From contig NZ_CP159992.1 in NCBI RefSeq assembly GCF_040702995.1, forward strand, positions 3,621,501-3,685,500: a DNA stretch of 64,000 nucleotides. Direction: 5' to 3'. The notes under the pieces were generated by a model. It had not been told where the DNA came from. It was given only the letters and a program-made list of their open reading frames with translations, and made no database searches. This document shows, in pieces, positions 47,734 to 48,422 of this stretch. Each line of letters opens with the position of its first letter. Positions within the stretch are counted from its first letter, which is position 1. Source of the DNA: Paenibacillus sp. AN1007. GTDB lineage: Bacteria; Bacillota; Bacilli; Paenibacillales; Paenibacillaceae. Position numbers and translations under genes: made by a program.

Positions 47734-47955
47734 TTATTTGATAAACTTCGAAACCTTCGCCAGCACTTCTTCTTCCGAAGGTGCACTGATATAGCGGCCG
47801 TTAACGAAAACAAAAGCACGCTTTGCACAAGGGCCGCAGTAAGATTTACAACCGATCTTCACCTCTGTGCCTGGAGCCATCTTCTCAAGCTTAGGCACAA
47901 TCGACTTCAATCGGATATGATTACATTTTTCGCATACACGGATATCGTTAGCCAT
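47734..47955 (-). CDS. DUF1450 family protein, YuzB-like
   Basis: Protein of 73 residues with five cysteines in the pattern CEKC near the N-terminus and CKSYCGPC in the middle, typical of YuzB/DUF1450, which is thought to adopt a thioredoxin-like, ferredoxin-related fold. The spacing could hold an iron-sulfur cluster or zinc. It follows the HesB-like gene by 21 bases on the same strand, so the two form an operon. In B. subtilis yuzB also lies in a neighbourhood of iron-sulfur assembly genes. Confidence 0.88.
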   Translation of the reverse strand: MANDIRVCEKCNHIRLKSIVPKLEKMAPGTEVKIGCKSYCGPCAKRAFVFVNGRYISAPSEEEVLAKVSKFIK

Positions 47956-47976
47956 GATTTCCCCTTCTTCGCTCCC

Positions 47977-48279
47977 TTAGTGGTCGCCGTGGTTGCCTTT
48001 GGAGGGATTTGTAATGACAAATCCTTCTTGCGGCAAGTAGAGGTAATCAATTTTCACGCCATCCAGCATAGGCTGTCCGTTTTCCAAAATGACATCAATG
48101 TCTTTATCCGTAGAAACAACCGTGTCATTATCTCCAGGTGTATCCAGATCAAGTCCGTAGTGGGCATGATCTCCATGTGCATGGGTAATCACAACACGCA
48201 GTTTTTTGCCTTCGTTCTCCGGCTTGTCCAGTTCAAGCTTCAGCACTTTCGCTGCATTACGAGTAATTTTGCAGTTCAT
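47977..48279 (-). CDS. HesB/IscA-fold protein with histidines in place of cluster cysteines
   Basis: Protein of 100 residues following the A-type carrier pattern: N-terminal ITRNAAKVL, central LRVVITHAHGDHAHYGLDLD, VKIDYLYLPQEGFVITNP and a C-terminal tail. In A-type carriers the loop carries GGCSG and the tail CGCG; here these places read HAHGDHAH and GNHGDH, so the three cluster cysteines are gone and six or so histidines take their places. The only cysteine is near the N-terminus (MNC). ATG 48279 has GGAG 9 bases upstream. Binding of another metal is an inference. Confidence 0.8.
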   Translation of the reverse strand: MNCKITRNAAKVLKLELDKPENEGKKLRVVITHAHGDHAHYGLDLDTPGDNDTVVSTDKDIDVILENGQPMLDGVKIDYLYLPQEGFVITNPSKGNHGDH

Positions 48280-48422
48280 TCGATTCATCTCCTATATTGT
48301 CATTGCTGGTTCCAACAATTTCAGCATTCAATTAGACTTCAGCATCTATTGTAAAGAAAGTTGCAGCTAATCGCAATAACATTGATGCGAAAACGACATG
48401 AAGTCATATTTTCGACACGACC

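Follow-up and report, generated by a model that had tools for sequence, protein, structure and literature searches.

The window, a stretch of 64,000 nucleotides from the 6.64 Mb genome of Paenibacillus sp. AN1007, carries two adjacent genes on the minus strand. The first encodes a small histidine-rich protein, related to the A-type carriers, while the second, located 21 nt downstream, encodes a DUF1450 (YuzB-type) protein. Both open reading frames were found where the original prediction had placed them, on the same strand. The 100 residues of the histidine protein read MNCKITRNAAKV...VITHAHGDHAHYGLDLD...LDGVKIDYLYLPQEGFVITNPSKGNHGDH. The features of the locus are collected in Table 1.

Table 1. 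Features of the histidine-type locus, with positions given in window coordinates.
Feature	Position	Strand	Basis and remarks
His-type A-type-carrier-like gene	47977..48279	-	ORF, 100 aa plus stop
Loop H33-A-H35-G-D-H38-A-H40-Y41, in place of the GGCSGxxY cluster loop	48157..48183	-	Alignment with cysteine-type carriers, 58 representatives
D52, invariant acidic residue	48124..48126	-	Alignment, 58 representatives
Tail H97-G-D-H100, in place of C-G-C-G	47980..47991	-	His-rich, spacing variable among relatives
DUF1450 (YuzB-type) gene	47734..47955	-	ORF, 73 aa plus stop; PF07293 match
Shine-Dalgarno AGGAG	48289..48293	-	Read from the sequence; kept in relatives
Sigma-A-like promoter TTGCGA-17-TACAAT, upstream of both genes	48348..48376	-	Sequence and alignment

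The position of the Shine-Dalgarno sequence (AGGAG, 48289-48293) suits the second ATG of the histidine frame, at 48279. In the promoter, TTGCG and TACAATA are kept in most of the aligned Paenibacillus upstream regions; around the locus, 4 promoter-like sites are found, against 2.2 expected. No Fur/Zur/PerR-type palindrome is obvious by eye in the 5' region, which features a plain conserved promoter, and no metal transporter gene is found at the window's locus. Within Paenibacillus, dN/dS ranges from 0.01 to 0.09 (eight comparisons with finite dS), indicating that the histidine gene is real and under strong purifying selection; an artefact, or a non-coding ORF, is ruled out by these values, together with the conservation of the protein.

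Database names for this protein are inconsistent, ranging from 'heme biosynthesis protein HemY' to 'iron-sulfur cluster assembly accessory protein'. The window protein matches TIGR00049 at E 2.1e-8, with 34.3 bits, under the NCBIfam cut-off of 58.8, and gives no match to PF01521. When the aligned relatives are analyzed, TIGR00049 matches 44 out of 44 at E <=0.01, and PF01521 matches 37 out of 44 with E values no higher than 1, the best being 4.6e-6; profile comparison reaches IscA at E 8e-7 and HI1723 at E 1.4e-8. An AlphaFold2 model, built from the alignment, scores pLDDT 93.8 and pTM 0.84. Its VIA-align neighbours are IscA structures (1s98, Z 12.2; 1r94, 12.1; 1x0g, 11.8), followed by DsrR (2k4z, 11.7), SufA (2d2a, 10.7) and YneR/PdhI (9a4q, 8.1); the first unrelated row has a Z of 2.2. 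Since Z ranges from 10.7 to 12.2 for IscA/SufA-type structures, and unrelated rows start from 2.2, an IscA/SufA fold is well supported for this protein, by prediction. The HesB-like framework, proposed from the letters alone, is therefore retained in the model, where the fold found is that of IscA and not an unrelated one.

The predicted likeness to A-type carriers (IscA, SufA, ErpA; TIGR00049, PF01521) extends over almost the full length, with the loop, the tyrosine, the aspartate and the C-terminal NP motif in the same register. The ligands, in contrast, are different: A-type carriers have three cysteines, while the histidine protein has none of them, and features three invariant histidines in the loop instead. 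As it lacks the Cys-Xn-Cys-X-Cys ligand motif which defines the family, it is described here as a relative of A-type carriers with a putative new metal site, rather than as an A-type carrier.

The original prediction had the GGCSG loop replaced by HAHGDHAH and the CGCG tail by GNHGDH. The alignment bears this out: THAHGDHAHYG aligns, gap-free, to the GGCSGxxYG of cysteine-type carriers, and GNHGDH occupies the position of their CGCG tail. The histidines are also conserved in homologues, HxxHxH[YF] being kept in all 132 distinct relatives, whose loops contain histidine and glycine and no cluster cysteine. Five residues (H35, H38, H40, Y41 and D52) show no variation among 58 representatives, less than 85% identical and taken from many families of the class; position 36 is glycine in 58 out of 58, but aspartate in two other sequences (L073 and L109). 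Four residues are frequent, yet not invariant: H33 (88%), D37 (90%), H97 (90%) and H100 (86%). The core is thus reduced to H35-x-x-H38-x-H40-Y41. No cysteine is invariant in the clade, and none is present in the tails of the representatives; at least one histidine is found within the last nine residues in 57 of the 58. A histidine-rich tail, kept despite its drifting spacing, fits a role as metal ligand. In cysteine-type carriers the tyrosine is kept, with glycine, cysteine or serine in the loop, and aspartate is frequent at the position of D52: as both residues are usual there too, the change specific to the clade is the three-histidine loop. Second histidine-type copies occur at three loci of the window's family (L078, L079, L107), where HGDHGHYD is kept and the tail histidines are lost (GFLEK).

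The THxHxDHxH pattern of the loop may also be read as a metallo-beta-lactamase-like zinc or iron site, making the protein a small hydrolase, and Pfam Lactamase_B_2 does touch the loop, at E 0.041. The match, however, covers about 38 residues, and its 13.9 bits fall short of the cut-off (27 bits). Structure prediction gives the IscA fold, and the first histidine and the aspartate of HxHxDH, corresponding to H33 and D37, are variable. By family score, predicted fold and residue variability a metallo-beta-lactamase identity was rejected, and a hydrolase appears extremely improbable.

In a maximum-likelihood tree, built on few columns and arbitrarily rooted, the 58 histidine-type sequences are split from 21 Cys- or Sec-type ones with a support of 100/100; the stem of the histidine clade measures 0.99 changes per column. 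On these sequences, the clade is monophyletic. Among 59 near relatives, 49 have the histidine type, which also turns up across many families in the Bacilli sample. In the phylum sample, all high-scoring matches belong to the class, and of those outside it the ten examined are Cys- or Sec-type; as the contig search returned the best 80 of 260 relatives, absence outside Bacilli holds among the matches listed. A scan of viral contigs revealed no relative of the histidine protein. A degenerate HGxxHxHY DNA pattern, run on 398 genomes, proved too loose and was discarded, as it matched many genomes in which the gene is absent. HesB relatives from other families of the phylum (L207, L209, L213) feature an in-frame TGA at a cluster cysteine, probably encoding selenocysteine.

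Two cysteine-type carriers, with a GGCTG or GGCSG loop and a CGCG tail, are also encoded in the window's genome; a further two PF01521 members are more divergent. The retention of the two cysteine-type carriers indicates that the histidine protein is an extra paralogue, the Fe-S job being already covered. This bears on the possibility that an Fe-S cluster is still carried, in a labile or high-potential variant, ligated by histidine (and tyrosine or aspartate). Such a cluster would be in keeping with the unchanged fold, with the location of the replaced ligands at cluster positions and with the ferredoxin-like character of the neighbouring DUF1450 protein. The coexistence of cysteine-type carriers, and the absence of any invariant cysteine in the clade, nevertheless make it very doubtful; to our knowledge, a cluster site made up of histidines alone has not been reported for any A-type carrier. 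Two phylogenomic studies of A-type carriers (PMC2682760, PMC7144353), neither of which contains the word 'histidine' in its main text, do not describe the clade, nor does a study of Paenibacillus polymyxa Fe-S genes (PMC8038749): as far as open-access papers show, it is apparently undescribed.

Two of the structural neighbours stand apart from the cluster carriers. DsrR, from Allochromatium vinosum (2k4z), shares the IscA-like fold (Z 11.7), but its profile match is just 24.7 bits and its context is sulfur oxidation; it is likewise without the cluster cysteines, and we know of no comparable histidine loop in it. PdhI/YneR, from Bacillus subtilis (9a4q), is likewise a small Bacilli protein with an IscA-like fold and a non-Fe-S role (PMC10090944), but is structurally more distant (Z 8.1; 21% identical over the aligned part). 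PdhI binds and inhibits pyruvate dehydrogenase E1, and its Y31 is predicted to reach into the entrance of the active site (PMC10090944). By analogy, the histidine protein could be a regulator which uses the A-type carrier scaffold without any cofactor, the loop being a protein-binding surface and its histidines contacts rather than ligands. This is the main rival explanation: both DsrR and PdhI are found among the neighbours, and an invariant loop could well serve as an interface. Three invariant histidines, accompanied by a drifting histidine tail, nevertheless resemble metal ligands more than a fixed interface, and a PdhI-like function is considered unlikely.

The downstream neighbour matches Pfam PF07293 at E 2.7e-12, with 46.8 bits, over the gathering cut-off of 30.1. 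The five cysteines originally attributed to it are all present (C8, C11, C36, C40 and C43); in the DUF1450 alignment C8, C36, C40 and C43 are invariant, C11 and H13 nearly so. The protein is a true member of the YuzB/DUF1450 family, but a paralogue with an extra cysteine, C11. Its model, of modest quality (pLDDT 78.6), finds its best structural neighbours among thioredoxin-like [2Fe-2S] ferredoxin domains (NuoE, FDH gamma; PF01257), with a VIA Z of 6.8 for a formate dehydrogenase domain and of 5-6.7 for others, values which, being below 8, may reflect no more than a common arrangement. The C..C..CxxxC pattern (C8, C11, C36xxxC40) may be comparable to that of these ferredoxins, but the cysteine spacing differs, and the best E of PF01257 is only 0.066. 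In other parts of the class, four-cysteine DUF1450 relatives have C8, C11, C36 and C40 but no C43, which fits a ferredoxin-like set. On the whole, the resemblance to a thioredoxin-like [2Fe-2S] ferredoxin is suggestive only. In one family (f37; L242, L243) a four-cysteine DUF1450 gene lies beside histidine-ammonia-lyase-like and amidohydrolase-like genes.

The canonical YuzB of the window's genome is located away from the histidine locus (L198 4332-8150; C1:462331-466149). It adjoins an Nfu-like gene, and nearby lie a cysteine-type carrier, a radical-SAM gene (MqnE-like) and a YutJ-like (NADH-dehydrogenase-like) oxidoreductase; apart from YuzB and the carrier, these genes were named by reading their sequences. 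By hand count, YuzB is within 10 kb of a cysteine-type carrier in 26 of the 28 sampled genomes listing both. This Fe-S gene neighbourhood may point to the role of YuzB. A thioredoxin fold is predicted for this protein, and a yuzB transposon mutant of Bacillus anthracis shows impaired entry into sporulation (PMC12700454).

The original prediction also proposed that the histidine and YuzB-type proteins act together. Their adjacency is real: in the window's order, a DUF1450 gene lies next door, on the same strand, at 45 of the 48 histidine loci examined, and three genomes have the histidine gene without a five-cysteine DUF1450 gene. In other families of the class, however, none of 35 loci features a DUF1450 gene near the histidine one (1.5-3 kb read). 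Co-occurrence tells a similar story, the two being neighbours in one order only: nine of the ten sampled genomes of the order lacking the histidine gene still match the five-cysteine DUF1450 profile, at 112-140 bits. Each of the five matches examined has five cysteines, and in several of these genomes the gene lies beside an M14 peptidase or an aldo-keto reductase. The functional side of the proposed pairing is thus weak, as each gene occurs alone: the two are long-standing neighbours and form no obligate unit, and joint function explains their being adjacent no better than shared ancestry of the neighbourhood. An obligate two-component system, for a metal or for an unusual cluster, would agree with the conserved arrangement within the order, and with the location of canonical YuzB close to cysteine-type carriers and, in the window's genome, to Nfu. 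It is improbable, given that DUF1450 is kept where the histidine gene is missing, is missing from three genomes with the histidine gene and lies near none of the 35 histidine loci read outside the order; an obligate pair was accordingly set aside.

Outside the window's order, the neighbours of the histidine gene are widely varied. In one distant family (f23), a CbiX-type chelatase gene (PF01903, E 1e-21) is located upstream of it, on the same strand (L088 3821-4192, L089 3366-3731), at 14 bp from the histidine ORF as called in L089, and CodY is found downstream at both loci. The chelatase may be seen as a mild hint of metal delivery. Copies of the histidine gene, annotated with one or the other of the two database names above, are also carried by Peribacillus frigoritolerans plasmids (L224, L225): an ArsR-type regulator gene and LLM-class flavin oxidoreductase genes lie upstream, glutamine-amidotransferase-like and SDR genes downstream, and a quinol monooxygenase is included in the cluster. 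On a chromosomal contig (L080 868-2982), two LLM (Bac_luciferase) genes directly precede the histidine gene.

The loop is most naturally read as holding some metal, and not a classical Fe-S cluster. A metal-ion site is suggested because the cluster ligands are lost, three histidines are fixed in their place, a histidine tail persists and ordinary carriers coexist. There is about an even chance that the protein is an A-type carrier scaffold turned into a histidine-ligated metal-ion protein, most plausibly for Fe(II), working as a carrier, a buffer or a sensor. The Bacilli clade would descend from the A-type carrier family through the loss of the Fe-S ligands; a three-histidine site would have been gained at the same place, complemented by the tyrosine and the aspartate and by a flexible histidine tail. 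The protein would then bind one divalent metal ion and act beside the ordinary carriers. Fe(II) is the first guess, since purified E. coli IscA contains mononuclear iron (PMC12683245), and the alternatives are Zn, Ni, Co and Cu. In the window's order, the DUF1450 protein might serve as a thioredoxin-like redox partner, a weaker part of the proposal. Site, metal and role are all putative, and the fold which hosts them is a predicted one. Against a metal-binding function stand the plain promoter, the lack of a metal transporter gene at the locus, the varied neighbours and the loss of the tail histidines in L078, L079 and L107.

A more specific version, unlikely in its entirety, is that the scaffold was converted once into a dedicated three-histidine metallochaperone or metal sensor, which would pass one metal ion, such as Fe(II) or a metal destined for a CbiX-type chelatase, on to its clients, with the DUF1450 protein as a thioredoxin-like ferredoxin partner in the window's order.

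It has long been debated whether A-type carriers hand over clusters or iron. A clade in which the fold is kept, the cluster cysteines are gone and three histidines are fixed would provide a direct test of a cluster-free scaffold. Judged from its sequence, the histidine type represents a variant within the family of A-type carriers, and a candidate new metal-handling protein of common soil bacteria.
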